Below, one piece after another: positions 1 through 51,226 of a stretch of 64,000 nt of DNA. Origin of the DNA: Gammaproteobacteria bacterium (GTDB lineage Bacteria; Pseudomonadota; Gammaproteobacteria; 21-64-14); assembly GCA_027013145.1 (NCBI GenBank), contig JALUXX010000036.1:124001-188000 (forward strand). Reading direction: 5' to 3'. The notes under the pieces were generated by a model. It saw only the letters and a program-made list of their open reading frames with translations, was not told the DNA's origin and made no database searches. Position numbers and translations under genes: made by a program. Positions within the stretch are counted from its first letter, which is position 1; each line of letters opens with the position of its first letter.

Positions 1-1612
<1,612 letters not shown>

Positions 1613-1658
1613 GCGGCCCCGTGGGGCGGCGGTCCGACCGGGCGCGGGGCGCGCGGGG

Positions 1659-2414: not shown

Positions 2415-2445
2415 ACCGCGCCGTCGGGCGGCGAACGCTGAAAAT

Positions 2446-2586
2446 GTAGCCCGGATGGAGCGCAGCGCAATCCGGGGAGAGGAAGCTCCCCGGCACCGTA
2501 ATTCCCCGGATTCCGGCCTGCGGCCTGCATCCGGGCTACGAGACTAGGAGACAGGTAGCCCGGATGGAGCGCAGCGCAATCCGGGG
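2446..2586. repeat. REP-like palindromic repeat cluster (TAGCCCGGAT family)
   Basis: Two direct copies of a roughly 32-base unit beginning GTAGCCCGGATGGAGCGCAG lie at 2446-2477 and 2555-2586. Between them, at 2504-2539, is an inverted relative ending CATCCGGGCTAC, so the cluster can fold into long hairpins. It fills the gap between two convergent genes (the TauE-type gene and pyrE). This family differs in sequence from the GGGCGGGCC repeats elsewhere in the window. Similar units are common in gammaproteobacterial intergenic DNA. Confidence 0.75.
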
Positions 2587-2670
2587 GCGCCTTTTCTGGG
2601 GCCGGCGGATTCCCGCGCAACGGTCGCGCGTCATTTGCGGGCACCCGTTGCGCCCGGCGGTCCGTCGGGA

Positions 2671-3324
2671 TCAGGTGATGCGGATCCCGTATTCGGTTTG
2701 ATAGCGGTGGATCGCCGCCAATGCCTCGGGGTCGAAATCGGCGTCGTCTTCCAGATAGGCGATCAGGTCGGCGAGCGTGACGATGCTCGCCACCGGAATC
2801 CCATAGCGCTCCTCGACCTCCTGTATCGCCGAGGGCCCGGCGCGGCCGCGCTCCTGGCGGTCGAGGGCGATCACGACGCCGGCGGGTTCGGCACCGGCCT
2901 CGCGGATGATCGCCACTGAATGCTCCACGGAGAGCCCGGAGGTGATCACGTCGTCGACGATCAGCACGCGCCCGCGCAGCGGCGCGCCCACCACCGTACC
3001 CCCTTCGCCGTGGTCCTTGGCCTCCTTGCGGTCGAAGGCATAGGGGAGGTCGAGGGCGTGGTGGTCAGCGAGCGCCGCGGCGGTGGCCGTCACCAGCGGG
3101 ATCCCCTTGTAGGCGGGGCCGAAGAGCATATCGATCGCGATGCCGGAGCGCACGACCGCCTGTGCGTAGCAGCGCCCCAGGCGGGCGACCGACCCGCCGC
3201 TCGCGAACCGTCCCGCGTTGAAGAAATACGGGCTGATGCGCCCCGATTTCAGGGTGAACCGGCCGAAGCGCAGGGCGCCGGTCTCGAGGGCGAAGCGGAT
3301 GAAGTCCTGTTGGTAGGCGTGCAT
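2671..3324 (-). CDS. pyrE: Orotate phosphoribosyltransferase
   Basis: This 217-residue enzyme joins orotate and PRPP to give OMP in pyrimidine synthesis. The PRPP loop appears as [11 protein letters not shown] (around residue 120), and the N-terminal [18 protein letters not shown] and [10 protein letters not shown] are typical of PyrE. It ends with the family's TEYGI-like tail. The gene lies divergent to the ExoIII/Crc-type gene, with about 140 bases between the starts, the same arrangement as pyrE and crc in Pseudomonas. The other pyr genes of the window are about 10 kb away. Confidence 0.95.
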
Positions 3325-3467
3325 GGACGGGTCCGGCCGGCGGTCGCGGCTGTCGGTTTGCGGCCGGGAACGCCCGCCGCGGCGGTTTCGCGTATCATAC
3401 CGTGCGCGGCGGCGTGCGGAAACGCGGATGGCGCGCCGGTGCCGAAGCGACCGCCGGGGGCCGTGCG

Positions 3468-35831: not shown

Positions 35832-36227
35832 TCAGTGTTCCTCGTCGGCGAGGAATGCGCCGTAGCCCGCCGCGTCCATCAGGTGATCGAGGGCGGCGCC
35901 CGCGGCGGGGCGGATGCGCAACAGCCAGCCGGCGCCGTAGGGCTCCTGGTTGACCTGCTCGGGGTGATCGGCGAGGGCCGCGTTGCCTTCGACCGTTTCA
36001 CCCGAGACCGGGGCATAGACGTCGGAGGCGGACTTGACCGATTCGACCACGGCGCACGCCTCGCCCGCCTGCAGCGTGCGCCCCGCCTCCGGGACCTCCA
36101 CGTAGACCATGTCGCCCATCTGGTCCTGGGCGTGGTCGGTGATGCCCACCGTGACGGTGCCGTCGTCGTTCAGGCGCACCCATTCGTGGGTCTTGGTGTA
36201 CTTGAGGTCCTGGGGAATCTCGCTCAT
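35832..36227 (-). CDS. gcvH: Glycine cleavage system H protein
   Basis: The 131-residue lipoyl carrier has its lipoylated lysine at K65 in VVESVKSASD, with YTKTHEWVRL near the start and GNAALADHPEQVNQ further on. It carries the aminomethyl group between the P, T and L proteins. Between gcvT and gcvPA. Confidence 0.96.
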   Translation of the reverse strand: MSEIPQDLKYTKTHEWVRLNDDGTVTVGITDHAQDQMGDMVYVEVPEAGRTLQAGEACAVVESVKSASDVYAPVSGETVEGNAALADHPEQVNQEPYGAGWLLRIRPAAGAALDHLMDAAGYGAFLADEEH

Positions 36228-36252
36228 CGTGCCGCCCCGTCGGGTTGGGTGT

Positions 36253-37344
<1,092 letters not shown>

Positions 37345-37426
37345 GAGGCAGCGTCCGGGTTCCGTCGCGATGGGAGATCCCCCACGGCCGCGCGGGCTAC
37401 GGCGGGGGCCGGCGGTCGTGCCCGGC

Positions 37427-37455
37427 ACTATACCGGCGGCGGGGCCCAAAACCAA
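37427..37455 (-). promoter_or_regulatory. Candidate sigma70 promoter for gcvTHPA
   Basis: On the minus strand a TTGGTT -35 (37450-37455) and a TATAGT -10 (37427-37432) are separated by exactly 17 bases. Transcription would start near 37420, giving a leader of about 75 bases before gcvT. I see no glycine riboswitch in that leader. Confidence 0.6.
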
Positions 37456-37480
37456 GACGCCGCCGCGCCCACCGCAGCGC

Positions 37481-38866
37481 CTACTCGATGACGAGATAGA
37501 GCGAGGCGTCGCCGCGGCGCAGGTTGAGCACCAGGGCGCGCGGGTTGCGGCCAACGGCGGCGCTCAGGTCGCCGACCCCGGCCAGGGTGTGGTGATTGAG
37601 CGCCAGGATCACGTCCCCGTCGCGCAGGCCGGCCTCCCAGGCGGGGCTGCCCGGGGCGACGCGCACGACACGCACCCCGCGCGGGCCGCCGCCGATGGGG
37701 TCGGGCGGGACGTCCGCGAACCGGGCGCCGGCGAGCCGCGGGTCGATGCGGCGCCCTTCGATGGTGCGATGCGACGGCGCCGCCATCACCGCCTCGACGG
37801 TCCGCTCGCGGCCGCCGCGCAGCACGGTCAGGCGCACATGGCGGCCCACCGGGAGCAGGCCGACGGCGTTGCGCAGGTCACGCGTGCGCCGCACCGGGCT
37901 GCCGTCCACGCCGATCACCACGTCGCCGACGCGCAGCCCGGCGCGCGCGGCCGGCGAACCGGGCACGACCTGGGTGATGACCGCGCCGTGGTCGCCGCGC
38001 ACGCCGAAGGCGCGGGCCAGCCGCGGCGTGAGGTTCTGGACGGTGATCCCCAGCACCCCGCGGCGCACGCGCCCGTAGCGGATGAGCTGCTCCATGACCT
38101 CGCGCGCCATGTTGATGGGGATGGCGAAGCCGATGCCGATGTTGCCGCCCTGCGGGCTGAGGATGGCGGTGTTGATGCCGACCAGCCGGCCGGCCAGATC
38201 GACGAGTGCCCCGCCGGAGTTGCCCGGATTGATGGAGGCGTCGGTCTGGATGAAGTCCTCGTAGCCCCCCAGTCCCAGCCCGCTGCGCCCCAGCGCGCTG
38301 ACGATCCCGGAGGTCACCGTCTGGCCGAGCCCGAAGGGATTGCCGATGGCGACGACGAAGTCGCCCACGCGCAGGCGGTTGGAGTCGCCGAGCCGGATGG
38401 CGCGCAGCCCCGTTGCGTGCACCTGGATCACGGCGATGTCCGAGGCGCGGTCGGTGCCGACGAGACGCGCCGGCAGCCGGCGCCCGTCGCGCAGTGTGAC
38501 CACGATCCGGTCGGCGCCCGCGATGACGTGGTTGTTGGTGAGAATGTAGCCGCGGCCGGCGTCGACGATGACGCCCGAGCCGATGTCCTGGCGCTGCTCC
38601 TCCTGCGGGAGCCGGGGCAGGTTGAAGAAGCGGCGGAAGAACGGGTCGAGCAGGAGCGGGTTCTGTACCTGCACGTGACCCAGCGCGGTGACGTTGACCA
38701 CGGAGGGGGTCACGCGTTCGAGCATCGGTGCGAGCGAGGGCAGCGGCCGTCCGTCGACGATCGGCGGGATCGAGGCCAGCGCGGCCTGCGCCGGGAGCAG
38801 CGCGCACAACAGCCACGCTGCGAGACGTGCGGCGCGTACGGTGCCGCGCGGGGCGGATGCGGTCAC
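37481..38866 (-). CDS. DegP/DegQ/MucD-type periplasmic serine protease
   Basis: The 461-residue HtrA protease has a signal peptide (residues 1-31), catalytic H113 (LTNNHVIAG), D143 (ASDIAVIQ) and S217 ([10 protein letters not shown]), and two PDZ domains (about 265-350 and 370-455). It degrades or refolds misfolded envelope proteins. The start is GTG with AAAAAGGAGC upstream. Upstream DNA has a 31-nt hairpin and then a 126-bp tandem array. It is read in the same direction as the hsp20-cbpA-cbpM genes. Confidence 0.92.
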
Positions 38867-38886
38867 ATGTAAGCTCCTTTTTAGTG

Positions 38887-38917
38887 GTTGGGAAGGGCCG
38901 TTCCGGCCCTTCCCAAC
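38887..38917 (-). promoter_or_regulatory. 31-nt perfect hairpin upstream of the degP-type gene
   Basis: Arms GTTGGGAAGGGCC and GGCCCTTCCCAAC form a 13-bp perfect stem with a 5-base loop. It ends 20 bases before the GTG start; the ribosome binding site lies between them. It has the same length, loop size and end sequences as the hairpin at 22023-22053, with four matched stem substitutions. Confidence 0.75.
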
Positions 38918-39243
38918 TTCGCCGCGCCCGGCGCGTGTCCGTGCGCGGCTCCGACGGATCGGACACGGGGTGTCCGATCCGCGGGCGGGGCTTATCGCCC
39001 CGCCGCTATTGAGGGGGCGAGGGGCCCTGCGGCCCTTCCCGACTTCGCCGCGCCCGGCGCGTGTCCGTGCGCGGCTCCGACGGATCGGACACGGGGTGTC
39101 CGATCCGCGGGCGGGGCTTATCGCCCCGCCGCTATTGAGGGGGCGAGGGGCCCTGCGGCCCTTCCCGACTTCGCCGCGCCCGGCGCGTGTCCGTGCGCGG
39201 CTCCGACGGATCGGACACGGGGTGTCCGATCCGCGGGCGGGTC
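38917..39243. repeat. 126-bp tandem repeat array between cbpM and the degP-type gene
   Basis: Units start at 38917, 39043 and 39169; the third is cut off near 39243, giving about 2.6 copies. Each unit has a palindrome GATCGGACAC-GGG-GTGTCCGATC and a second stem GGCGGGGC-TTATC-GCCCCGCC. The length, 126, keeps the frame open in several frames, but none looks coding. No gene is visible in 38867-39299. Confidence 0.9.
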
Positions 39244-39249
39244 ATTATA
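39244..39249 (-). promoter_or_regulatory. Lone consensus -10 (TATAAT) upstream of the tandem array
   Basis: A perfect TATAAT reads on the minus strand right where the third repeat unit ends. There is no -35 at 16-18 bases, where the sequence is a G-run. If used, it would start an RNA of about 370 bases of leader carrying the array and hairpin before the degP-type gene. Confidence 0.3.
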
Positions 39250-39299
39250 CGGACCGGCGCGCGCGCGGGGGGTTCCGGGACGGGCCGGCGGCGGACGAT

Positions 39300-39638
39300 T
39301 CAGTCCGATCCGCAGCGCAGACGGTGTTCCAGCGTGCGCACCTGCGCGCGCAGGCGCCGCACCTCGTCGAGCAGGTCGAGCGCCAGCGCCGCGCCGGCGA
39401 GATTGACCTCGAGATCGCGCTGCAGGCGCAGCGCGGTGCGGATGCGGGTGACGGCGACCGCCGCGAAGCGCCACTCGGCGGGCGGGCCCTTGCCGAGGGG
39501 CTCGACGAGCCCCTCGGCCACCATCGCCATGAGCCGCTCCGCGGAGATGTGCGCGGCGCGGCACAGTTCGCCGAGCCCCACCGTGGACTCCTCGTCCAGT
39601 ACCAGCGTCGGCAGCGTCACCGGATCGCCTCGCGGCAT
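39300..39638 (-). CDS. cbpM: Chaperone modulator CbpM
   Basis: The 112-residue protein has a MerR-like N-terminal helix-turn-helix (VGLGELCRAAHISAERLMAMVAEGLVEPLG) and a C-terminal helical part (RIRTALRLQRDLEVNLAGAALALDLLDEV), the layout of CbpM. CbpM inhibits its DnaJ-like partner CbpA. It lies four bases after cbpA. Confidence 0.9.
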   Translation of the reverse strand: MPRGDPVTLPTLVLDEESTVGLGELCRAAHISAERLMAMVAEGLVEPLGKGPPAEWRFAAVAVTRIRTALRLQRDLEVNLAGAALALDLLDEVRRLRAQVRTLEHRLRCGSD

Positions 39639-39641
39639 CGT

Positions 39642-40589
39642 TCATCCTCCCTGCCGGGCGCGCGGGTCGAAGCGAAAGGTGCGCGCCATCTGTTCGTAGA
39701 TCCGCCGTGCCGGCTCCGTGTCCGCCGGCGGTGTGACGATCTGCAGGGTGACGTACTGGTCCCCGGGCGTGCGTCCGGGCAGTCCCCGCCCCTTGAGCCG
39801 CAGCTTGCGGCCGGACTGCGAGCCGGGCGGGATCTGCAGGTCCACCGGGCCGCCGAGCGTGGGGGCCTGGACGCGGGCGCCGAGGGCGGCCTCCCAGGGC
39901 GTGATCGGGAGGGTCACGTGGATGTCGCGCCCGTGCGCCTCGAACTGCGGGTGCGGGCGGAAGGCGATCTCGAGATACAGGTCCCCGGCCGGTCCGCCGC
40001 CGGCGCCGGGTCCGCCCTGACCCGCGAGCCGGATCTGCTGGCCTTCGGTCACGCCCTTGGGGATGCGCACCTGCAGCGTGCGGGTCTTGCGTACGAGGCG
40101 TCCGTGGGCGTCGACCGCCGGCACCTCGAGCTGGATCTGGCGCGTCGTCCCATGGTAGGCGTCCTCGAGCCCGATCAGGATCTTGGCGTGGTGGTCCTCG
40201 CCCTGGAACCCCCGCCCGCGCGCGCCATGGGCGCCCGCAAACGGCCCGCGCGCCCCGAACAGGGCCTCGAAGAAGTCGCTGAAGCCGCCCGCGCCGGCGT
40301 CGGTGAAGCCGCCGCCGCGAAACTCGAAGCCGGCGTCCCAGTCCGGCGGCGGCCGAAACTCCTGCCCGGTCTTCCATTCGCTGCCGAGGCGGTCGTAGGC
40401 CGCGCGCTTCTCCGGGTCCTTGAGGACCTCATAGGCCTCGTTGACCTCCTTGAAGCGTTCCTCGGCGTCCGGTTCCTTGCTGACGTCCGGGTGGAACTTG
40501 CGCGCCAGACGCCGGTAGGCCCGCTTGACGTCCTCCTGCGAGGCGTCGCGTTCGAGACCGAGGGTCCGGTAATAGTCCTTGAATTCCAT
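39642..40589 (-). CDS. cbpA: DnaJ-like co-chaperone CbpA
   Basis: The 315-residue protein starts with a J domain ([11 protein letters not shown] at residues 33-35), then a Gly/Phe-rich segment and two C-terminal substrate-binding domains with [17 protein letters not shown]. There is no zinc-finger, as in CbpA rather than DnaJ. It stimulates DnaK in stress. It sits between hsp20 and cbpM. Confidence 0.93.
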
Positions 40590-40608
40590 CGGCGGCGATC
40601 ACAAAGCG

Positions 40609-40649
40609 GCCCGCGGTCCCGGCCGTGAATCCCGGCCGGGGCCGCGGGC
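40609..40649 (-). terminator. Long GC-rich hairpin between hsp20 and cbpA
   Basis: Two 16-base arms (GCCCGCGGTCCCGGCC at 40609 and its partner at 40634) pair with one wobble across a 9-base loop. No T-run follows, so it may be an attenuator or an mRNA stabiliser that lets hsp20 outproduce cbpA. Confidence 0.45.
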
Positions 40650-40672
40650 GGTCGTATTACCCGCGCGGGGCA

Positions 40673-41116
40673 TCACGCCTCCACGGCGATCTTGCGCGGG
40701 CGCGCGGGCTCCTGCTTCGGAATGGTCACCTCCAGCACCCCGTTTTGCACGCGTGCGGCGATGCGCTCGGAGTCGGCGGTGTCGGGCAGGGTGAAGCGGC
40801 GGTAGAAGGTCCCGCGCACCCGCTCGACGCGTTTGTAGTTCTTGCGCTCTTCCTCCTTCTCCTCGTTGCGGCTCCCCTGCAACGTCAGCACCCCGTTCTC
40901 CATCGTGATCTCGATGTCCTTGGGGTCGACGCCGGGGACGTCGGCGTGCAGGACGTAGCGGTCGGGCTCCTCGCGGATGTCCACCGCCGGGATCCAGTCG
41001 CTGGTCGCCGCGGTCGCCTCGTCGCGATCGCCGAGCACACGCGGGTCGAACAGCCGGTTGATCTCGTTCTGGAGCTGGTTCACGAGGCTCCAGGGTTCAT
41101 AACGCGTCAGGGCCAT
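40673..41116 (-). CDS. Hsp20/IbpA-type small heat shock protein
   Basis: The 147-residue protein has an alpha-crystallin domain (about 40-135) with YVLHADVPGVDPKDIEITMENGVLTLQG split here, and the GVLEVTIPK motif near the end. It holds unfolding proteins. The ATG has a strong GGAGG upstream and a sigma32-like promoter further on. It leads the hsp20-cbpA-cbpM group. Confidence 0.94.
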   Translation of the reverse strand: MALTRYEPWSLVNQLQNEINRLFDPRVLGDRDEATAATSDWIPAVDIREEPDRYVLHADVPGVDPKDIEITMENGVLTLQGSRNEEKEEERKNYKRVERVRGTFYRRFTLPDTADSERIAARVQNGVLEVTIPKQEPARPRKIAVEA

Positions 41117-41168
41117 GGTCGTATCCTCCGATTTCGTTCGGCACCGGACACCGGTGCGGCTGTCGAAT

Positions 41169-41196
41169 AGATATAGGCGGGGCGGGGGTTTTCAAG
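41169..41196 (-). promoter_or_regulatory. Candidate sigma32 heat-shock promoter for hsp20-cbpA-cbpM
   Basis: On the minus strand CTTGAAA (41190-41196) matches the sigma32 -35 exactly, and CTATATCT (41169-41176) fits the -10 in its ATnT part after a 13-base spacer. Its place about 55 bases before hsp20 suits a heat-shock operon. Confidence 0.6.
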
Positions 41197-41231
41197 GGGC
41201 CCCGAATGGCGGCCGGCCCCGCCCGGCACCG

Positions 41232-41247
41232 GCACAAGATGTAGTGG
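41232..41247. promoter_or_regulatory. NrdR-box-like palindrome, distal
   Basis: GCACAAGATGTAGTGG resembles the ACAC...GTGT NrdR box at 12 of 16 positions by my alignment. It lies 280 bases before nrdJ and 173 before a near-identical site. Confidence 0.45.
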
Positions 41248-41314
41248 GCGGGCCCGTGCGGCCGCCGCGGCACGAGTCCATAAAAAACGTGAATGAATCC
41301 AAAAACGTACATAT

Positions 41315-41345
41315 AACTATATGATTATGAAAGTGTAATATAGTT
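41315..41345. promoter_or_regulatory. AT-rich inverted repeat upstream of nrdJ
   Basis: AACTATAT (41315-41322) and ATATAGTT (41338-41345) are an 8-base inverted repeat, 15 bases apart, in a strongly AT-rich patch (41285-41350) of the hsp20-nrdJ divergent region. It could bind a regulator or serve as an UP element for the nrdJ promoter. The rest of the 395-base gap has no gene. Confidence 0.4.
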
Positions 41346-41366
41346 GTATTTTGGCGCAACCGAGGG

Positions 41367-41396
41367 TTGACAGTACCGGGAGGGAAGGTCTACGTT
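41367..41396 (+). promoter_or_regulatory. Candidate nrdJ promoter
   Basis: A perfect TTGACA (41367-41372) is followed after 18 bases by TACGTT (41391-41396), a weak -10. Transcription would begin near 41403, inside or beside the proximal NrdR-like palindrome, which is a good place for repression. Confidence 0.5.
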
Positions 41397-41404
41397 TTGG
41401 GAAT

Positions 41405-41420
41405 GCACAAGATGTTGTGC
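41405..41420. promoter_or_regulatory. NrdR-box-like palindrome, proximal
   Basis: GCACAAGATGTTGTGC is a perfect inverted repeat with a 4-base centre and matches the NrdR box at 12 of 16 positions. It lies just downstream of the candidate nrdJ -10. Confidence 0.55.
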
Positions 41421-41511
41421 CGGTGATCCGGAGACCGCGTCCGGGCCGCCGGGGGCACCCCATGCGGGGCCGCCTCGCCCATAGATAACGACCGGAGGGG
41501 GAACCACCACG

Positions 41512-44500
41512 ATGAAACCCGCGCAGGCCAACGCAGCCACCGGCGCCGCCGCCGAGATCCCGTACCAGGAGGCCTCCCTGGATATCTGGGACAAGAAATA
41601 CCGGCTCAAGGCCAAGGACGGCACCGTCGTCGACGCGACCATGGACGACACCTACCGGCGCGTGGCCCGCGCCCTGGCCGACGTCGAGGCCACGCCCGAG
41701 GCGCGCGAGCATTGGTTCGAGCGCTTCCTGTGGGCGCTGCGCCGCGGGGCGATCCCCGCCGGGCGCATCATGTCCAATGCCGGCGCCCTCGCCTACAAGC
41801 CCTCCACCTCGACCATCAACTGCACCGTCTCGGGCACCATCCGCGACTCGATGGACGACATCCTGCAGAAGGTGCACGAGGCCGGCCTGACGCTGAAGGC
41901 GGGGTGCGTAGCCCCCGGCACGCGGGTGCGGACCGAACGCGGCCTGGTGCCGGTCGAGCGCGCCGTGGCCGAGCGCCATCGGCGCATCCTGAGCTACGAC
42001 CGCGAACGGCGGCGGTTCGAGATGCGTGAGATCCTCCGCCACATGACGGTCCACGTGCCGCGCCGCGAGAATATCGAGATCGCCGCGGGCGGCGTGTCGT
42101 TGCGCACCTCGGTCAAGCACCCGGTCCTGGTCTACCGCGAGGGCGCCCTGCGCTACGTGCGCGCCGACGAGGTCCGGGAAGGGGACGCCCTGGTACGCCA
42201 TCGGTATCCCTGGGAGGCGGATACGGGGCGCGCGCCGGAGGCGTGGTTCGCGGGTGCGCACCTCGGCGACGGTTGCGCGTACGAGAAGCGCTTCGAGTAC
42301 AAGGCCTCGCGCACCCGGTGGGCGCAGCGTGCGCGCGCCTGCGGCCGGCGGCTGGTCTTCAAGATCCGCGCCGCCGAGCGCGAAGTGGTCGAACGTTACG
42401 CGGCATTCTTCCACAGCCGTTTCGGGACCCGCGCCGCGGTGGCGGAAGCGCTGACCGCCAACGGTGTTCCGGTCTGGGACTTCCAGGTCGCCGGTTTCGC
42501 GGCGAGCGCGGCGGAGGAACTGATCGACGGACAGATCGGCCGCAAGACCGCTGCGTTGCATGTCCCGGAGTGGATCCGCAGCGCGCCCGACGCATACTTC
42601 CTGCCGTTTCTCGCGGGCCTGATCGACACGGACGGCACCGTATCGCGCGAGCGGGGGGCGGCGACCATCGCGACCGCGAACTTCGGGTTCGCCGCGGAGT
42701 TGCGCTCCCTGCTCGGCATCTTCGGAGTGGATGCCGGACTCACGCGGCGCGGCCCGCGGTCGCATCACTATCGCGGCCACGAAATCCGCGACGCCGGCGG
42801 GGCGATGCTGCAGATCTCCGACTCGGCGTTTCTGGCGCGTGTCGCGGACTTCATGGCGGACAGCGGCAAGCGCAGGCGCATACGGGAGTGCGCCTCGCAG
42901 TCCGGGCAGTACGACCGTTACCGCCTGCCCGACGACCTGATCGCGGCGCTCAGCGCCGAGGCCGCGGGGCTCGATCACCGCGAACGCCAGGAACTGGGTT
43001 TCTACCACGGCTATCCGGCGCGGGCGGTGGTCAGCCGCGTGTGGCTCGACCGCTGGGCCGCGCGGTTCCCTCATCTGCGCGGGCTGATCGATTTCGCACG
43101 CACCCTGCGCCCGGTCACCTCCGTGCGCCGTGCGCTCGACCTGCCCGAGACGTTCTATGATTTCACCGTCGAAGGCCACAACAACTACCTCGCCGGCGAC
43201 GGCGGTCTGGTAGTGATCCACAACTGTGGGATCGGCTATGAATTTTCGACGCTGCGCCCGCGCGGCGCCTACGTCAGCGGCGCCGGCGCCTACACCTCCG
43301 GCCCGCTCTCGTTCATGGACATCTACGACAAGATGTGCTTCACCATCTCCTCGGCCGGGGGGCGGCGCGGGGCGCAGATGGCGACCTTCAGCATCTCGCA
43401 CCCGGATGCGGCGGAGTTCGTGCGCGCCAAGCGCGAGAACGGGCGGCTGCGCCAGTTCAACTGCTCGCTGCTGATCACCGCCGAGTTCATGGAGGCGGTG
43501 AAGCAGGACGGCCCGTGGCGCCCGGCTTTCCCGCTCAGCCGCGAGGAGGTCGAGAGCGAGGGCATCGACCTCGGCGACCGCGAACAGGTGGTGTGGCGCG
43601 AATGGCCGGTGCACGAGGGCTACATCACCAACGCCCAGGGGCTGGTCGCCTGCCGCGTCTACCGCACGATGCGCGCGCGGCGTCTGTGGGATCTGATCAT
43701 GTCCTCGACCTACGACTACGCCGAGCCGGGGTTCATCCTGATCGACAAGGTCAACGAGATGAACAACAACTGGTGGTGCGAGGACATCCGCGCGACCAAC
43801 CCCTGCGGGGAGCAGCCGCTTCCGCCCTACGGCTCCTGCCTCCTGGGCTCGGTCAATCTCACCAAGTTCGTGCGCGAGCCGTTCACCGAGCGGGCGCGCT
43901 TCGACTGGGACGAGTATCGCGAGGTCGTCGCGGTATTCACGCGCATGCTCGACAACGTGGTGGAGATCAACGGACTGCCGCTCGAGCGCCAGCGCGAGGA
44001 GATCGTGCGCAAGCGCCGCCACGGCATGGGTTACCTCGGGCTCGGCTCCACGCTCACCATGCTGCGCATGCGCTACGGCGCACCGGACTCGGTCGCCTTC
44101 ACCGAGCGCGTCACGCGCGAGATGGCGGTCACGGGTTGGGAGGCGGGCCTGGAGCTCGCGCGCGAGAAGGGACCGGCGCCGATCATGGAGGAGGAGTTCA
44201 CGGTCACCGAAGAGATGCTCGCCAAGCGCCCGGAGATGCGCGCCGACGGCGTGCGCGTCGGCGACCGCCTGCCGGGGCGCGTGTTGCATGCGCGCTACAG
44301 CCGCTACATGCGCCGCCTCGCCGAGGCCGCCCCGGAGCTGGTGGAGGCGCTCGCGGCGGAGGGGGCGCGCTTCACGCACCACACCTCGATCGCGCCCACC
44401 GGGACGATCTCGCTCTCGCTTGCCAACAACGCCAGCAACGGGATCGAGCCGAGCTTCGCGCACCACTACTTCCGCAACGTGATCCGCCCGGGGCGCAAGA

Positions 44501-44985
44501 CCAAGGAGAAGGTCAGTGTCTACTCCTTCGAGCTGCTCGCCTACCGCGCGCTGGTGAACCCGGCGGCCGCGCCGGACGCGCCGTCCCCGCAGGACGCGCT
44601 GCCCGACTACTTCATCACCTCCGAGGACATCACGCCGCGCGAGCACGTCGACATCCAGGCCGCGGCGCAGAAGTGGATCGACTCCTCCATTTCCAAGACC
44701 GCCAACGTGCCGACCGACTACCCCTACGAGGACTTCAAGGACATCTATCTGTACGCCTACGAACAGGGCCTCAAGGGCTGCACCACCTTCCGGTTCAATC
44801 CGGAGGCCTTCCAGGGCGTGCTGGTCAAGGAGAAGGACCTCGCCAACACCACCTACCGCTTCACCCTCGAAGACGGGACGATGGTCGAGGCCAAGGGCAA
44901 CGAGGAGATCGAGTACGACGGCGAGGTGCATACCGCCGCGAATCTCTACGACGCGCTCAAGGAAGGGTATTACGGCAAGTTCTGA
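41512..44985 (+). CDS. nrdJ: Adenosylcobalamin-dependent ribonucleotide reductase (class II), intein-containing
   Basis: The 1157-residue precursor contains a 440-residue intein (C132-N571), leaving a 717-residue enzyme that reduces ribonucleotides with coenzyme B12. Extein motifs include INCTVSGTI, the active-site NPCGEQPLPPYGSCLLGSVNL and PTGTISLSLANNASNGIEPS. The intein interrupts the LTLKAG/CGIGYEFSTLRP joint in the conserved core. A perfect TTGACA -35 and two NrdR-like boxes lie upstream. The separate C-terminal redox part is encoded next door by nrdJb. Confidence 0.95.
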   Translation: MKPAQANAATGAAAEIPYQEASLDIWDKKYRLKAKDGTVVDATMDDTYRRVARALADVEATPEAREHWFERFLWALRRGAIPAGRIMSNAGALAYKPSTSTINCTVSGTIRDSMDDILQKVHEAGLTLKAGCVAPGTRVRTERGLVPVERAVAERHRRILSYDRERRRFEMREILRHMTVHVPRRENIEIAAGGVSLRTSVKHPVLVYREGALRYVRADEVREGDALVRHRYPWEADTGRAPEAWFAGAHLGDGCAYEKRFEYKASRTRWAQRARACGRRLVFKIRAAEREVVERYAAFFHSRFGTRAAVAEALTANGVPVWDFQVAGFAASAAEELIDGQIGRKTAALHVPEWIRSAPDAYFLPFLAGLIDTDGTVSRERGAATIATANFGFAAELRSLLGIFGVDAGLTRRGPRSHHYRGHEIRDAGGAMLQISDSAFLARVADFMADSGKRRRIRECASQSGQYDRYRLPDDLIAALSAEAAGLDHRERQELGFYHGYPARAVVSRVWLDRWAARFPHLRGLIDFARTLRPVTSVRRALDLPETFYDFTVEGHNNYLAGDGGLVVIHNCGIGYEFSTLRPRGAYVSGAGAYTSGPLSFMDIYDKMCFTISSAGGRRGAQMATFSISHPDAAEFVRAKRENGRLRQFNCSLLITAEFMEAVKQDGPWRPAFPLSREEVESEGIDLGDREQVVWREWPVHEGYITNAQGLVACRVYRTMRARRLWDLIMSSTYDYAEPGFILIDKVNEMNNNWWCEDIRATNPCGEQPLPPYGSCLLGSVNLTKFVREPFTERARFDWDEYREVVAVFTRMLDNVVEINGLPLERQREEIVRKRRHGMGYLGLGSTLTMLRMRYGAPDSVAFTERVTREMAVTGWEAGLELAREKGPAPIMEEEFTVTEEMLAKRPEMRADGVRVGDRLPGRVLHARYSRYMRRLAEAAPELVEALAAEGARFTHHTSIAPTGTISLSLANNASNGIEPSFAHHYFRNVIRPGRKTKEKVSVYSFELLAYRALVNPAAAPDAPSPQDALPDYFITSEDITPREHVDIQAAAQKWIDSSISKTANVPTDYPYEDFKDIYLYAYEQGLKGCTTFRFNPEAFQGVLVKEKDLANTTYRFTLEDGTMVEAKGNEEIEYDGEVHTAANLYDALKEGYYGKF
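41905..43224 (+). mobile_element. Intein with LAGLIDADG endonuclease inside NrdJ
   Basis: It begins with Cys132 in the CVAPGTRV segment and ends VVIHN (N571), followed by Cys572 of the extein, the standard splicing chemistry. Block B has H203 (TSVKHPVLV). Two LAGLIDADG motifs are visible: WFAGAHLGDG (residues 245-254) and FLAGLIDTDG (366-375), both with acidic residues, so the endonuclease may be active. Block F/G is FYDFTVEGHNNYLAGDG. The 1320 bases are in frame with no stop. Confidence 0.95.
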
Positions 44986-45021
44986 GACCGCGGCCGCACG
45001 GCGCCCCCGGGGAGAACGGAT

Positions 45022-45765
45022 ATGACCATCAAGATCGAAGGCAGGATCACCGACTACGAAGTCGTCAACGACGCGGCCGAGACCCAGGCCGCGGCGCCCG
45101 CCGCGGCCGGTGCGCCGGCGCCGGGGCAGGCGGCGGAGTCGAACATCATCCAGATGCACGAGAAGGTCGAGCGCCCGGAGGCGCTGTTCGGCTCGACCTA
45201 CAAGGTCAAGACGCCGCTCTCCGAGCACGCCCTCTACGTCACCATCAACGACATCGTCCTCAATGCCGGTACCGAGTACGAACTGCGTCGGCCCTTCGAG
45301 ATCTTCATCAACTCGAAGAACATGGACCACTTCCAGTGGATCGTTGCGCTGACGCGGATCATCTCGGCGGTGTTCCGCAAGGGCGGGGACGTGACCTTTC
45401 TGGTCGAGGAGATGCGCTCGGTCTTCGATCCGCGCGGCGGCTACTTCAAGAAGGGCGGCGTGTTCATGCCCTCGCTGGTGGCCGAGATCGGCGATGTGAT
45501 CGAGCGCCACCTGCGGATGATCGGGCTGCTCAAGGACCAGGGGCTCGACGAGCACCAGCAGCGGTTCGTGGAGGAGAAGCGCGCCGAGTACGAGGCCTCG
45601 CGGGGCCGAAGCGGCGCCGATGCCGGGGGCGAGGGGGCGGAGGGCGGAAGGGAAGCCGCCTTCCCCGAAGGCGCGCGACTGTGCGCGAAGTGTCAGACCA
45701 AGGCCGCGATCATGATGGACGGCTGCCTGACCTGCCTCAACTGCGGGGAGTCGAAGTGCGGCTGA
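45022..45765 (+). CDS. nrdJb: NrdJb-like ribonucleotide reductase subunit
   Basis: The 247-residue protein has the TSCPD-type domain of split class II reductases (LYVTINDIVLNAGTEYELRRP, FEIFINSKNMDHFQW) and ends with a cysteine-rich tail, LCAKCQTKA and CLTCLNCGESKCG, likely the shuttle that re-reduces the active site. A variable Gly/Ala linker precedes it. It starts 36 bases after nrdJ with GGGGAG upstream. Its last 29 bases overlap the end of the converging znuB-like gene. Confidence 0.9.
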   Translation: MTIKIEGRITDYEVVNDAAETQAAAPAAAGAPAPGQAAESNIIQMHEKVERPEALFGSTYKVKTPLSEHALYVTINDIVLNAGTEYELRRPFEIFINSKNMDHFQWIVALTRIISAVFRKGGDVTFLVEEMRSVFDPRGGYFKKGGVFMPSLVAEIGDVIERHLRMIGLLKDQGLDEHQQRFVEEKRAEYEASRGRSGADAGGEGAEGGREAAFPEGARLCAKCQTKAAIMMDGCLTCLNCGESKCG

Positions 45766-46558
45766 TCGGGATCCGCCGCAACTGCGCGGTCAGGTACAGG
45801 GCGAAGCTCAGCCCGGCGATCCACGTGCTGGCGGGGTAGCCGATCGCGTAGGCGGCCGCGAGTCCCGCCCAGGTCACGGCCACGCCGATGGCCACGGCCA
45901 ACAGCAGACCGCCGGCGAGGCTGCGGCTCAGCGCCTGCGCCGCCGCCGGCGGGCCGATGAGCAGCGCGAAGATGAGCAGCGCACCGATGACGGGCACGGC
46001 GACGGCCACGGTCGCGGCCACCAGCGTGATGAACAGCAGATCGAGCCGGCGGGTGTTCACCCCGCGCGCCTGCGCCGCCTCCGGGTCGAGGCTCGCATAG
46101 CACAGCGGCCGGTAGAGCAGGGCGAGGCCGAGGAGACCGGCCGCGGCCACCGCCACGGACAACGTGACCTGGGCGGAGGTGATCCCGACGATGCTGCCGA
46201 ACAGGATCCCCATGGCCGACTGCGAGTTGCCGGTCGCGAGGTTGAGGAACAGGACCCCCAGCCCGAGGGCGAACATCAACACCATGCCGATACCCACGTC
46301 GCGCTCGCGCAGGCGCCGCCCCGCCAGTGCGAGCGCCAGCCCGCCGGCCAGCGTGAAGACGAACAGCCCCGCGTAGGCGCTCACGCCGAGCAGCAGGGCG
46401 CCGGCCGCGCCGGTGAAGCCGAGATGGGACAGCGCGTGCGCGGCGAAGGCCTGGCGCCGCAGCGTGACGAAGTAGCCCACCGCCGCGCTCACCACGGCGA
46501 TCGCGCCGCCGGCGGCGTAGGCATGGCGCATGAACCCGTACTCCAGCCCGAGCATCAT
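45737..46558 (-). CDS. znuB: Metal ABC transporter permease (ZnuB family)
   Basis: The 273-residue membrane protein has eight or nine hydrophobic segments and the ABC-3 family sequence FAAHALSHLGFTGAAGALLLG. It should form the channel for zinc or manganese import with the next two genes. Start ATG-ATG at 46558 overlaps the znuC stop. The C-terminal RRIPISRTSTPRS tail runs into the converging nrdJb. Confidence 0.88.
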   Translation of the reverse strand: MMLGLEYGFMRHAYAAGGAIAVVSAAVGYFVTLRRQAFAAHALSHLGFTGAAGALLLGVSAYAGLFVFTLAGGLALALAGRRLRERDVGIGMVLMFALGLGVLFLNLATGNSQSAMGILFGSIVGITSAQVTLSVAVAAAGLLGLALLYRPLCYASLDPEAAQARGVNTRRLDLLFITLVAATVAVAVPVIGALLIFALLIGPPAAAQALSRSLAGGLLLAVAIGVAVTWAGLAAAYAIGYPASTWIAGLSFALYLTAQLRRIPISRTSTPRS

Positions 46559-47418
46559 GGGCGGCCCCGATCGCGGTGCGGGCCGTGCGCGTGCTCGTGT
46601 CCGCAGTGCCCGGCGCCCTCGGGCATGAAGCCGGAGACCGGGTGGATGAACACGTAGCCGTCGACGCGCGTGACCGACATCGGCAGCCCGTACAGCTCCG
46701 ACAGGGCGGGGCCGTTGACGACCTCCTCCACCGTGCCGATCCGGCCGCGGCCGCCGGCCAGATAGAGGACCCGGTCCATGTGCGGGAGCAGGGGGTTGGG
46801 GTCGTGCGCGGTCATGAGTACGGTGAGCCCGCGTTCCCGGCACAGGCGCCGCGCGGTGAGCAGGATGCGCTGCTGCGCCTGCGGATCGAGGTTGGACAGC
46901 GGCTCGTCGAGCAGCAGTACACGCACCGGATTGACCAGCGCCTGGGCGATGCGCACGCGCTGGCGCTGACCCCCCGAGAGGGTGTCCATCCCGCGATCGG
47001 CGAGATCGCCGGCCTCGAGCGCCGCCAGCGCCGCCTCCACCGCCCGGCGGCGGGCGCCGCGGTCGAGGCCCACGCCCCAGCGCTCGGCGCGCCAGGCGGC
47101 GCCGAGATAGGCGCGCACCGAGAGGAAGCCGTCGGCGCCCGCCGGGTCGCGCTGCGCCACGTACCCGACCTGCGCGCGCGTGCGCAGATCGTCGGCGCCG
47201 AGCAGGCGGACGCGTCCGCGGTCGATCGGCTGCAGCCCCAGCAGGGCGCGCAGCAGGGTCGTCTTGCCGGCGCCGTTGGTCCCGAACACGCCGACGAAGC
47301 TGCCCTGCGGGATGCGCAGGTCGATGCCGTCGAGTACGCGCCGCCCGCCGAGCGTGCAACTCAGGCCCTCGGCCTCCACCGCCCACCGCTGCACCGCGGC
47401 CGCGGCCGGATCGTTCAT
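46555..47418 (-). CDS. znuC: Metal ABC transporter ATPase (ZnuC family) with His-rich tail
   Basis: The 287-residue ATPase has Walker A GTNGAGKTTLLRALLG, signature LSGGQRQRVRIAQAL and Walker B VLLLDEPLSNLD. The C-terminus has HCGHEHAHGPH, a likely metal-binding tail. Overlaps of four bases with znuA and znuB show a tight operon. Confidence 0.9.
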   Translation of the reverse strand: MNDPAAAAVQRWAVEAEGLSCTLGGRRVLDGIDLRIPQGSFVGVFGTNGAGKTTLLRALLGLQPIDRGRVRLLGADDLRTRAQVGYVAQRDPAGADGFLSVRAYLGAAWRAERWGVGLDRGARRRAVEAALAALEAGDLADRGMDTLSGGQRQRVRIAQALVNPVRVLLLDEPLSNLDPQAQQRILLTARRLCRERGLTVLMTAHDPNPLLPHMDRVLYLAGGRGRIGTVEEVVNGPALSELYGLPMSVTRVDGYVFIHPVSGFMPEGAGHCGHEHAHGPHRDRGRP

Positions 47419-48311
47419 CGCGCGTCCCCGGCCAGGGCACGGTCGAGTCCCCGCACGGTCGCGAGCAGCCACTCGACGTATCCGGTGTGCGGGGGCGGGA
47501 ACTCCCGCGCGCCGAACGCCGGGACGCCGGCGCGGCGCGCGACCGCACGCAGGTGGCGCGTGAGGGGGTCGCCGACCTGACGGTTGAACACCAGCAGCGA
47601 GACGCGGTGCTCGCGCAGGCGGGTCTCGAGGCGGGCGACCGCCGCCGGCGCGGGCTCGGTGCCGTTCATTACCGCGTCCTCCACGGCGGGATCGACGTCG
47701 CGCCACCCCAGCCGGTGGAGCAGGTAGCCGAGGACCGGCTCGGTGGCCGCGACGGACAGGCGCGGATGGCGCGCGTGCAGGGCGTCGATGGCCGCATCGA
47801 CGCGATCCAGAGCCGCCTCGAACACCCGCAGATTGTGCGTGTAGTCGCCTGCGTGGTGCGGGTCGAGCGCGCGCAGGCGGGTCGCGAGCCGCCGCGCCAG
47901 TGCGCGCGCGAAGGCCGGATCGTAGAAGACGTGCGGGTTGCGGTTCGCGAGGATCGCGCCGCGATCGAGGTCCGCGACGACGATCACGGTGCGGTCCGGC
48001 ACGGGGGCGGCGGCTGCCAGCCGTTGCATCCATGCATCGTAGCCCAGCCCGTTGAGGATCACGATGCGCGCCGCGGCCACCGCGCGCGCGACCGCCGGCG
48101 TCGCCTCGAAGCGGTGCGGGTCGACGTTGGGTGCGCCGATGATGCTGTAGACCCGTACGTGCGTGCCGCCGACGGCCCGGGCGATCACGCCGTAGGTGCT
48201 CTCGGCCGCCACCACGGCGACCGCAGCCGCACGGACCGTGGCGCACGCACACAACGCCAGCACCGCCAGCAGGCCGGCCAGGGTGCGGATACACCGCGGA
48301 TACCGCCGCAT
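47415..48311 (-). CDS. znuA: Metal ABC transporter substrate-binding protein (ZnuA family)
   Basis: The 298-residue protein has a signal peptide, possibly a lipobox (VLALC at residues 17-21). The family metal ligands appear as His in NVDPHRFEAT and NPHVFYDP. There is no His-rich loop, so zinc versus manganese cannot be told. It leads znuA-znuC-znuB, with a GTTATAT element upstream. Confidence 0.86.
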   Translation of the reverse strand: MRRYPRCIRTLAGLLAVLALCACATVRAAAVAVVAAESTYGVIARAVGGTHVRVYSIIGAPNVDPHRFEATPAVARAVAAARIVILNGLGYDAWMQRLAAAAPVPDRTVIVVADLDRGAILANRNPHVFYDPAFARALARRLATRLRALDPHHAGDYTHNLRVFEAALDRVDAAIDALHARHPRLSVAATEPVLGYLLHRLGWRDVDPAVEDAVMNGTEPAPAAVARLETRLREHRVSLLVFNRQVGDPLTRHLRAVARRAGVPAFGAREFPPPHTGYVEWLLATVRGLDRALAGDAR

Positions 48312-48356
48312 CGCTCGGATTCCGTTCGCAGGGGACGAAGTACTACCGGATGACCG

Positions 48357-48369
48357 GGTACTATATAAC
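48357..48369 (-). promoter_or_regulatory. Possible Zur-like site or -10 region before znuA
   Basis: On the minus strand GTTATATAGTACC lies 46 bases before the znuA ATG. Its left half matches the Zur half-site GTTATA; the right half is weak. It also contains TATAGT, a plausible -10. The rest of 48312-48552 shows nothing further. Confidence 0.35.
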
Positions 48370-48552
48370 AGGATGCCGTGCCGGCGAGGGCGGCGTGACG
48401 GCCGCAGCGGGAATTGGCCGGGCGGGAGGGACGGGTGATGCGCCCGCCATCGTGGGGACGCCTCGATCCCGCGGGGGTATCGGGAGTGCGTCGCCGTGAC
48501 GCGGCTCGGTCGCGGCGGGAGGCCTCGACGATCGGGTGGTCGGGGACTCCGG

Positions 48553-48726
48553 TCAGTCGTTGCGCACGCCGCGCGCGACGAAGCGGAACAGCTCCCGCGG
48601 CGACCGGAACGTACGGCGCACCGGTCGATCGTTTACCGCCCCCACCCAGTACGCCGGCAACGCCTCGCCCTTGAAGACCGGCCGCGCAACCACCGTGTGC
48701 CCGTTGATCGTTCTCGATACATCCAT
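48553..48726 (-). CDS. Small hypothetical protein (57 residues)
   Basis: I do not recognise this protein. It begins MDVSRTINGHTVVARPVFKG and ends ELFRFVARGVRND, with many Arg and Val and no membrane segment. A strong GGAGG lies 8 bases before the ATG, which is the main reason for calling it. The frame is open further upstream but that part is low-complexity. It stands alone between the znu operon and an AT-rich region. Confidence 0.5.
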   Translation of the reverse strand: MDVSRTINGHTVVARPVFKGEALPAYWVGAVNDRPVRRTFRSPRELFRFVARGVRND

Positions 48727-49345
48727 CGCAATCGCCTCCGCGGGGCGTGCGGTTGTTCTTCTTTGCGCTCCCCGGCAGCGGCCGCAGCGCCGATGCCGGC
48801 CGCCCGTGGCCCCGGAAGGCCGGGGTTCGGCGGGCGGTGTGCCCCGTCTTTGCCGAAATCCGAGCAACTTCGATGCCAAGCCGAAATAATATTTATTTTA
48901 CAATGGACTGCAGGCCCACTGGGCCTCGTGATGACGGGTCGGGCGGGGTCTGGCGGTCGAGGTGTAAAGAGTTTCGACGCCACGGTCCCCGGGATTGCGC
49001 CCGTAGGGTGATCTAACAGGTTGAACCTATGAAGTTTTTGGGTGCGCCCGGTGCCATTTCGGTGTCGGTGTCGAAAATCCGCCATCATGCGGGTACGGAG
49101 CGAATGGAACGTAAATTTTTGGTAATTCAATGAGTAATGTGAACTCTAGGTGTAAAGAATTTTGACAGTCCGGGGCACGGAGCGGCGCAGGCGCCCGTCC
49201 ACGGGTGCGGCGCGGCCACGCCGGCGCCGCGAAATGTAAAGTCCGCCGGCGTAAGGGCTGGTTCGGGGGCGGTCGCTGGTGGTGGGGGCGGGCGACCGGT
49301 ATAAAGGGGCCGGTCATCCGGCGCGTCCGGACGGGAGTGCGGGAC
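48727..49345. other. 619-base non-coding region with AT-rich patches
   Basis: No gene is visible here. AT content rises at 48878-48905, where AAATAA-TAT-TTATTT forms an inverted repeat (48884-48898), and again at 49020-49170. A 19-base motif, AGGTGTAAAGAGTTTCGAC, occurs at 48960 and with two changes at 49148. A perfect TTGACA at 49162-49167 overlaps the second copy, but no -10 is evident. The low GC stands out from the surroundings. Confidence 0.6.
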
Positions 49346-51226
49346 ATGCACGAGGATCTCACCCTGGCGCTGGCCCTGGTGGCGGCCCTGGGGATCGGCG
49401 CCCAGTGGGTGGCGTGGCGGCTGCATCAGCCGACCATCGTGCTCCTGCTCGTCGCCGGTCTGCTCGCCGGACCGGTCTTCGGCTGGTTGCACCCGTCCCG
49501 CGACTTCGGTGCGCTGCTGCATCCGATCATCCGGCTCGGCGTGGCCGTGATCCTGTTCGAGGGCGGGCTCAACCTGCACCTGCACGAGCTGCGCGAGGCG
49601 GCCACGGGCGTGAAGCGCCTGGTCTCGATCGGCGTCGTGCTGAGCTGGGTGCTCGGGAGTCTCGCCGCGCATTGGATCGGCGGGCTCTCCTGGCCGGTGT
49701 CGCTGGTCTTCGGTGCCATCACCGTGGTGACCGGGCCAACCGTCATCTTACCGCTGCTGCGCCACGCACGCCTCAACCGCCGTCCCGCTTCCTATCTCAA
49801 GTGGGAGGGGATCATCAACGATCCCCTCGGCGCGCTCCTCGCGGTCGTCGTGTTCCAGTACTTCATCTCCTCGGAGGGGCAGGCGTCGTTCCCGGCGGTG
49901 GCGGCGGGGCTCGCGCTCGGGCTGGCGGCCGCGGCCGCGCTCGGTGTGGGCGCGGGTCTCCTGACCGCCGCGGCGCTCGCGCGCGGCTACATCCCGGAGT
50001 TCCTCAAGGGCCCGGTCCTGTTCGCGGCGGTGCTGCTGATCTACATCGTCGCCAACCTCGCGCAGGCCGAGGCCGGCCTGCTGGCGGTGACCGTCTTCGG
50101 CGTCACGCTCGGCAATCGCCGTCTGGCGTCCATCGTCGAGATCCGCCGTTACAAGGAATACATGACGGTGCTGCTCGTCTCCGCGGTCTTCATCGTCCTG
50201 ACGGCGGATCTCGACCCGGCGGTGTTGGCGCGGCTCGACTGGCGCAGCGGGTTGCTGCTGGCGGCGCTGGTGTTCGCGGTGCGCCCGGTATCCGTGCTGC
50301 TGGCGACCTGGCGCGCCGGCATGACCTGGCCCGAGCGCGCGCTGGTGGCGTGGATCGCTCCCCGGGGCGTCGTCGCGGCCGCGGTGGCGGCCGTGTTCGC
50401 GCCGGAGATGGCCGCGCGCGGCTATCCCGATGCCGCGCTGCTCGTCCCGCTCGTCTTCGGACTCATCCTCGTCACCGTGCTGCTGCACGGGTTGAGCATC
50501 CAACGCCTGGCCTCGTGGCTCGGGCTGGCCTCCACCCGCCGCAACGGGGTCCTGATCGTCGGCGCCTCGCCGTGGGGAGTCGAACTGGCGCGTGTGCTCC
50601 AGGACCTGAAGGTCCCCGTGCTGATGGTCGATCAGTCGTGGGACCGCCTCAAGCCGGCCCGGCTCTCGGGGATCCGGGTCTCGTTCGGGGAGCTGCTCTC
50701 CGAGAGCGCGGAGGAGTCGCTCGAGCTGAACGACATCGGCTGGCTGCTCGCCGCCACCTACAACGACGCCTACAACGCCCTGGTGTGCACGCGCTTCGCT
50801 CCGGAACTCGGGCGCCGGCGCGTGTTCCAGCTGCGCCTGCACGGGGGGGACGAGGACGACCCGCGCGGGCTGCCGCGGACCCTGCGCGGAGAGGTGGTCT
50901 TCGACGAGGGTGCGACCTACGAGGAGCTGATGCGCCGTCACTACCAGGGCTGGCGCTTCCAGAAGACGCGCCTCACGGAGACCTACGATTACGAGGCCTT
51001 CCGGCGCGACTGCCCAAGCGATGCGCTGATCATGCTGCTCGTGCGCGAAGGCGGCGAGGTGGCATTCCAGTCATCGCGCAGTCCGCTCAAGCCGCGCGCG
51101 GGCGACACCGTGGTGTGCTATCTGCCCGCGGCCGAGCGCGCGCCGTCGCGCCCGCCGCCGAGCCCGGCCCCGCTGCCCGGCGAGCCCGCGCCCACCGCCT
51201 CCCAAGGCGCAACGGCGCGCCCGTAG
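49346..51226 (+). CDS. CPA1-type cation/proton antiporter with Rossmann regulatory domain
   Basis: The 626-residue protein has about twelve membrane segments (1-395) with ILFEGGLNL and the ion-site WEGIINDPLGALLAV. A cytoplasmic TrkA-N domain follows (about 405-500; GVLIVGASPWGVELARVL), then a C-terminal part and a Pro-rich tail. Such proteins exchange Na+ or K+ for protons. The ATG at 49346 has GGGAG upstream. The TAG stop is part of a palindromic repeat (GTAGGCCGGGCC), so the Pro-rich end may be a read-on extension. Confidence 0.85.
   Translation: MHEDLTLALALVAALGIGAQWVAWRLHQPTIVLLLVAGLLAGPVFGWLHPSRDFGALLHPIIRLGVAVILFEGGLNLHLHELREAATGVKRLVSIGVVLSWVLGSLAAHWIGGLSWPVSLVFGAITVVTGPTVILPLLRHARLNRRPASYLKWEGIINDPLGALLAVVVFQYFISSEGQASFPAVAAGLALGLAAAAALGVGAGLLTAAALARGYIPEFLKGPVLFAAVLLIYIVANLAQAEAGLLAVTVFGVTLGNRRLASIVEIRRYKEYMTVLLVSAVFIVLTADLDPAVLARLDWRSGLLLAALVFAVRPVSVLLATWRAGMTWPERALVAWIAPRGVVAAAVAAVFAPEMAARGYPDAALLVPLVFGLILVTVLLHGLSIQRLASWLGLASTRRNGVLIVGASPWGVELARVLQDLKVPVLMVDQSWDRLKPARLSGIRVSFGELLSESAEESLELNDIGWLLAATYNDAYNALVCTRFAPELGRRRVFQLRLHGGDEDDPRGLPRTLRGEVVFDEGATYEELMRRHYQGWRFQKTRLTETYDYEAFRRDCPSDALIMLLVREGGEVAFQSSRSPLKPRAGDTVVCYLPAAERAPSRPPPSPAPLPGEPAPTASQGATARP

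Follow-up and report, generated by a model that had tools for sequence, protein, structure and literature searches.

Organization of the nrdJ locus

The window, by which we mean the whole analyzed stretch of 64,000 nucleotides, carries on its plus strand an open reading frame of 1157 codons (nrdJa, 41512–44985) whose single stop codon is the terminal one. The frame opens with the N-extein (41512–41904), the N-terminal 131 residues of NrdJa, which harbors the Ribonuc_red_lgN domain (PF00317) at residues 19–91 and ends in HEAGLTLKAG. An insert of 440 amino acids follows in frame (residues 132–571; 41905–43224), with Cys132 as its first residue, HN as its last two and Cys572 as the residue next to it. 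The C-extein (43225–44985, stop codon included), the catalytic barrel of NrdJa, then runs from this Cys+1 and GIGYEF. These coordinates, size and ends agree exactly with those given by a sequence-only reading of this DNA, and the length of about 717 residues that it expected without the insert is also obtained by sequence arithmetic, the exteins summing to 717 amino acids.

The flanks of the insert are recognized as NrdJ by TIGR02504 (547 bits; cut-off, 400) and contain the domains PF00317 and PF02867. Among solved structures, the C-extein is matched by 1xjk, a B12-dependent reductase from Thermotoga, whose residue 162 aligns with residue 2 of the C-extein. Downstream on the same strand lies nrdJb (45022–45765), encoding a TSCPD domain (PF12637, above its cut-off) and a C-terminal cysteine-rich tail, and corresponding to positions 587–759 of the 759-position model PRK08665. 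With TIGR02504 above its cut-off and a separate NrdJb, the enzyme is a split class II (AdoCbl) reductase; the assignment to class II in the sequence-only reading thus stands, with the correction that the gene is of the split kind, NrdJa, and that NrdJb is encoded by the next gene. By analogy with Pseudomonas, the 717-residue product would be an NrdJa that is fully functional only together with the separate NrdJb.

Among the ten ORFs scanned in the surroundings (37481–51226), seven had a family, and none of these was a mobile-element family. Upstream, the minus strand encodes a trypsin-like PDZ protease and DnaJ-type and Hsp20 chaperones, and downstream, minus-strand genes for an ABC-3 permease, an ABC ATPase and ZnuA are accompanied by a sodium/hydrogen exchanger. 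Blastn finds no counterpart of the znu genes next to nrdJb (45766–49344) in the equivalent stretch (L066) of a genome of the same genus, G001, in which the matches on either side of this gap are only about 0.9 kb apart; matching resumes at window position 49345.

The genome has other ribonucleotide reductases. A second reductase alpha gene is located on contig C53, nrdA being followed there by nrdB (the latter recognized by reading), and nrdD is found on contig C31. On contig C31 (G000, L075), nrdD (979–3153) is followed by a separate ORF of 76 amino acids in another frame (3189–3419), which corresponds to the C terminus of the NRDD family, the part with the glycyl-radical motif, and then by an nrdG-like ORF, again by reading. 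The class III reductase therefore appears to be split as well, or the assembly may contain a frameshift at this place. With nrdA/nrdB and nrdD present, nrdJ as the sole, essential reductase was rejected, and the tie of the insert to DNA-precursor supply, proposed in the sequence-only reading, has to be softened, since dNTP supply does not depend on nrdJ alone. In the presence of class I and class III enzymes, nrdJ is probably needed conditionally rather than absolutely, and the host reductase of the insert, one of three, is probably the one required when oxygen is scarce.

Anatomy, predicted fold and conserved residues of the insert

Searched alone, the insert matches both Intein_splicing (PF14890; 9.9e-10, 38.9 bits; cut-off, 35.8) and LAGLIDADG_3 (PF14528; 3.6e-8, 34 bits; cut-off, 22.5), the latter above cut-off on its second half. 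In the whole nrdJa ORF, PF14890 scores 35.6 bits, just under the cut-off, and in a six-frame search of the genome 20.9 bits, also under it. The segment has the full length of an intein with a LAGLIDADG endonuclease, from Cys1 to Asn440. A block B-like motif, TSVKH, occupies intein residues 68–72 (42106–42120), and its T68, S69 and H72 are invariant in all of the 18 occupied genes compared, namely the window's own, six loci from public metagenome-assembled genomes (MAGs) and 11 genes from genomes of the class. The first LAGLIDADG motif, WFAGAHLGDG (residues 114–123; 42244–42273), aligns with AGFIAGDG of PI-PfuI, and the second, FLAGLIDTDG (residues 235–244; 42607–42636), with AGLFDAEG of the same protein; the acidic residues that the sequence-only reading had seen in the two motifs, D122 and D243, are kept in 18 of 18 inteins. 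The C-terminal splicing blocks, block F and the following one, were placed by alignment at residues 416–440 (43150–43224).

An AlphaFold model of the intein, made with seven aligned relatives, reached a mean pLDDT of 77.1 and a pTM of 0.79, whereas the other four models averaged pLDDT 61–65. The LAGLIDADG helices lie at residues 107–118 and 228–243 of the model, and the stretch at residues 122–140 is poorly modeled (pLDDT <50). The best solved structure found by Foldseek is PI-PfuI (1dq3; E 2e-17), to which VIA-align superposed 390 residues with a Z of 24.2 and an rmsd of 4.0 over the range 1–440. Other intein endonucleases come next in this comparison, and after them splicing domains, both from inteins and from hedgehog; the predicted model thus matches solved inteins of the HINT fold from end to end. 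By sequence, too, 1dq3 is the closest solved protein (8.2e-12); the alignment covers both LAGLIDADG motifs as well as the C-terminus.

The residues of splicing and of the endonuclease are intact. At 25 of 28 key positions checked, including C1, S69, H72, D122, D243, D419, H439 and N440, the 18 inteins are invariant; P4 and H425 are kept in 17 and I240 in 16 of them. K214 and P221 are also retained in all 18. Cys1, the block B His, the penultimate His, the terminal Asn and a nucleophile at +1, which is always Cys, are present in every occupied gene. At residue 124, right after the LGDG motif, Cys stands in place of Ser in the window's intein alone, one of the 18.

Empty sites and distribution

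In the same-genus genome G001, the orthologous nrdJ lacks exactly this segment, with zero residues at the joint, and no match to the intein is found anywhere in that genome, while its C-extein is 91% identical to that of the window. The blastn matches break off at window position 41908 and resume at 43231, the corresponding G001 positions, 7783 and 7780, being at most three bases apart, and the order of the matching pieces is conserved over window 36001–45765. The insert length is also zero in seven other empty genes that were fetched, against 439–446 amino acids in the 18 occupied ones; a ninth empty gene, that of G356, has MTLKAG directly before the +1 Cys and falls outside the automatic pattern. 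In all of the 18 occupied genes, the insertion is at KAG/C (the slash marking the insertion point) and ends in HN before Cys.

In a sample of 369 genomes of the class, 174 contain a C-extein match at E ≤ 1e-100, and a full-length intein is found in 12, all of them among the 174 and the window's own genome included. The sequence-only reading had itself named an ordinary domain shared by homologous NrdJ proteins as the finding that would overturn the intein, and these counts speak against it. A 13th matching genome, G310, was dropped for a 25-bit partial match far from its NrdJ gene, and so was a second weak match in G037, which lies inside the same NrdJ frame at the place of that gene's second intein. 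In a phylum-wide sample, the window's own genome is the only one of 398 to match at E ≤ 1e-10. The MAGs of the six loci, which show 61–68% identity, bear the titles Thiohalomonas denitrificans (two), Sulfuricaulis, Gammaproteobacteria bacterium (two) and Proteobacteria bacterium.

The joint had been called highly conserved, and this holds for the protein. For the DNA it does not: an unusually conserved target was expected but not found, as a 36-bp stretch centered on the joint comes 119th of 291 when 22 genes are compared (27 were fetched; four were excluded because their lengths differed, and G260 because its contig ends too early).

Possible carriers of the intein were also searched. Copies were found in none of 72,556 plasmid records, and in IMG/VR one pattern match from the scan with a single protein and 23 from that with alignment A1 gave no confirmed copy, these scans using short patterns that are biased to close kin. 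Among 50,697 phages there was one weak partial match, in Vibrio phage vB_VcorM_GR7B. These searches thus point to no vector. The large phage ORF (L054, 2596–5469), annotated as a hypothetical protein, matches residues 1–111, in the N-terminal splicing part, at 29%, and is perhaps an unannotated intein.

Further inteins in the nrdJ genes of relatives

The nrdJ genes of relatives can hold more than one intein. A second, different intein is inserted at ATNP/CGEQ in nine of the 16 readable genes that are occupied at KAG/C; in L007, its start is visible before the contig ends. It is also found in G126 (L070), whose KAG/C site is empty. In the window's protein, counted with its intein taken out, the ATNP/C site corresponds to residue 324, KAG/C lying after residue 131. 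Two kinds of intein are found there: five end in Gln, with GQ as the last residues (L005, L008, L058, L060 and L062), and four, plus that of G126, end in HN (L055, L056, L059 and L063, plus L070). For example, G151 and G262, which belong to one genus, have different kinds. Furthermore, a third site, PPYGA/CLLGS, is located 11 residues past the second: G354 (L064) and G148 (L065) have an intein of 493 amino acids there and none at ATNP/C, while their congener G259 shows the reverse, and in none of the 16 readable genes are both of these sites filled.

Mobility and selection

On a tree of the exteins of 25 genes (the 27 fetched minus L007 and G260, cut by contig ends), the occupancy of KAG/C requires a minimum of eight changes, six of them forced by starred branches, a number that is not representative, as the nine empty genes had been selected for their kinship with occupied ones. 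For the same reason, what can be read from the tree is that close kin differ in occupancy, and not how frequently it changes. Occupancy is not clustered on this tree in comparison with shuffles (406 of 500 were as low). The extein rows of G354 and G148 have one extra Cys (587 residues in place of 586), with hardly any effect on the tree.

The inteins do not always share the divergence of their exteins. The tree path between G148 and G259 is about 0.58 for the inteins versus about 0.05 for the exteins, while that between G259 and G354 is about 0.01 versus 0.02, and that between G151 and G262 0.02 versus 0.04. Silent divergence, calculated by the Nei–Gojobori method with the first 193 codons of the C-extein, as far as the ATNP site, as the extein part, follows the same directions: dS of intein versus extein is 1.14 (values above about 1 being near saturation) versus 0.23 for G148–G259, 0.03 versus 0.14 for G259–G354, and 0.08 versus 0.16 for G151–G262. 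Since intein dS is 1.4–2.9 times extein dS in the remaining six pairs, a generally higher silent divergence may just be a feature of inteins, and only G148/G259, with its 5-fold excess, and the two pairs with the opposite order would seem exceptional. Replacement or recent transfer would be the best account of these three pairs, and the differing occupancy in close kin and the incongruence of inteins and exteins would together fit an element that moves horizontally.

The dN/dS of the whole intein, at 0.08–0.29 in nine pairs, is far below 1, and that of the endonuclease part is also 0.08–0.29; in the three pairs that include the window's intein, the endonuclease part has 0.25–0.29, to be compared with 0.13–0.39 for the N-terminal splicing part. 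A co-conversion tract beside the insert was not found relative to G001: 11 of 60 positions within 30 bp on each side differ, against 269 of 2088 elsewhere, with Fisher p of 0.24, 0.68 and 0.44 at 30, 60 and 100 bp on each side, and 60-bp windows are also without signal. Nor does the GC3 of the first 10 C-extein codons give one, as low GC3 there occurs in empty genes too. The intein of the window has a GC3 of 0.88 versus 0.96–0.97 in its flanks, which was considered as a mark of late arrival; this is a weak argument, because intein GC3 is below C-extein GC3 in 17 of 18 genes and may thus be an intein trait.

Proposed explanation and alternatives

The families, the predicted fold, the empty-site homologs, that of the same genus included, and the conserved residues bear out the sequence-only reading of an intein with a LAGLIDADG endonuclease in a class II reductase. 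More precisely, the insert is very probably a class 1 intein (Cys1, Asn-terminal, Cys+1) of the splicing type with a two-motif LAGLIDADG homing endonuclease and a homing ancestry. Splicing chemistry is established for this protein family. Its general steps are described in PMC5874633. After translation, the intein would most likely excise itself through a thioester at Cys1, transfer to Cys+1 and cyclization of Asn440, and join KAG to CGIGYEF to form the 717-residue NrdJa, which would pair with NrdJb. At the KAG/C codons of an nrdJa without intein, the endonuclease would make a cut, and repair from an occupied copy would spread the insert. The sequences show the anatomy, the predicted fold, the exact empty sites, the intact catalytic residues, the low dN/dS values and the incongruent histories; splicing, DNA cutting and homing are inferred.

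A reading as an ordinary domain of an NrdJ subfamily that stays in the protein is hardly conceivable: the segment is in frame and present in 18 genes, but most NrdJ genes of the class sample, and that of the congener, do without it, its splice-junction residues are intact, its predicted fold is that of an intein, and inteins of one genus are far more or far less diverged than their exteins. It is also very improbable that the intein has lost splicing and that a non-functional NrdJ is tolerated thanks to the class I and class III reductases. The nrdA gene, the nrdB-like ORF beside it and nrdD would make a loss of NrdJ bearable; however, neither intein nor exteins contain a stop or frameshift, C1, S69, H72, H439, N440 and Cys+1 are in place, the C-extein has stayed close to that of the congener, and nrdJb is open downstream.

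A more serious alternative, though still an unlikely one, is that the intein splices while its endonuclease no longer cuts in this lineage, so that it has become a fixed passenger whose removal would have to be exact at the DNA level. The poorly modeled stretch of the endonuclease, the Cys that replaces Ser at residue 124 in the window alone and the missing co-conversion tract would fit this. Against it stand the retention of D122, D243, K214 and P221 in every intein compared, the dN/dS of the endonuclease part in the window's three pairs set beside that of the splicing part, and the congener without the insert. The endonuclease of the window's intein probably still cuts DNA. Because splicing needs free thiols at Cys1 and Cys+1, we also considered a redox switch, in which splicing is held under oxidizing conditions and released at low oxygen, the condition in which the cell needs NrdJ in addition to the oxygen-dependent NrdAB. 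This is improbable; if conditional splicing were true, a selfish element would be linked to oxygen adaptation. A conserved disulfide inside the intein as the switch is disfavored, as the cysteines beyond Cys1 in the window's intein are rare among the 18 (C124 in one, C146 in one and C329 in three).

With a class 1 intein as the preferred reading, the locus belongs to a coherent, apparently gammaproteobacterial intein family at one joint of split NrdJ. Natural pairs of an occupied and an empty sister, set on starred branches in the tree of exteins (G000/G001, L005/G126, G237/G123 and G337/G129), together with relatives that stack inteins at two nearby sites, make a bacterial set in which homing, loss and competition between neighboring inteins can be studied.

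Comparison with known systems

PI-PfuI of Pyrococcus furiosus resembles the window's intein in its end-to-end fold, in two LAGLIDADG motifs at the same places and in its HN end. It is, however, archaeal and shows 18–20% identity over the model. Its host is the ribonucleotide reductase RIR1.

Further related cases are described in the literature. Azotobacter NrdA and NrdJa contain inteins (PMC4465626), which share with the present one LAGLIDADG_3 and hosts that are gammaproteobacterial reductases, an nrdJa with nrdJb among them. The intein of Azotobacter NrdJa spans residues 321–690 (PMC4465626), and 321 fits ATNP/C, not KAG/C. The rir1-b, -g, -k, -l and -m intein alleles have been surveyed in Halobacteria and bacteria, Thioalkalivibrio and other Gammaproteobacteria included, and are similar as mobile, patchy inteins of reductase large subunits that are shared across phyla (PMC4071816). 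The R2 subunit of Aquifex also has an intein (PMC8772380). In Pseudomonas aeruginosa, which has the same two-gene layout of nrdJa and nrdJb, both NrdJa and NrdJb are required for a biologically functional enzyme, purified NrdJa alone having low activity, and NrdJa has 734 residues (PMC4520616), against 717 here after predicted splicing. The Pseudomonas protein differs in having no intein, a word that occurs zero times in that paper.

A search of a paper library that included the flanking peptide found, among the papers listed, none naming the KAG/C site. Inteins in ribonucleotide reductases are already well known, and that of the window is a further member of this kind.
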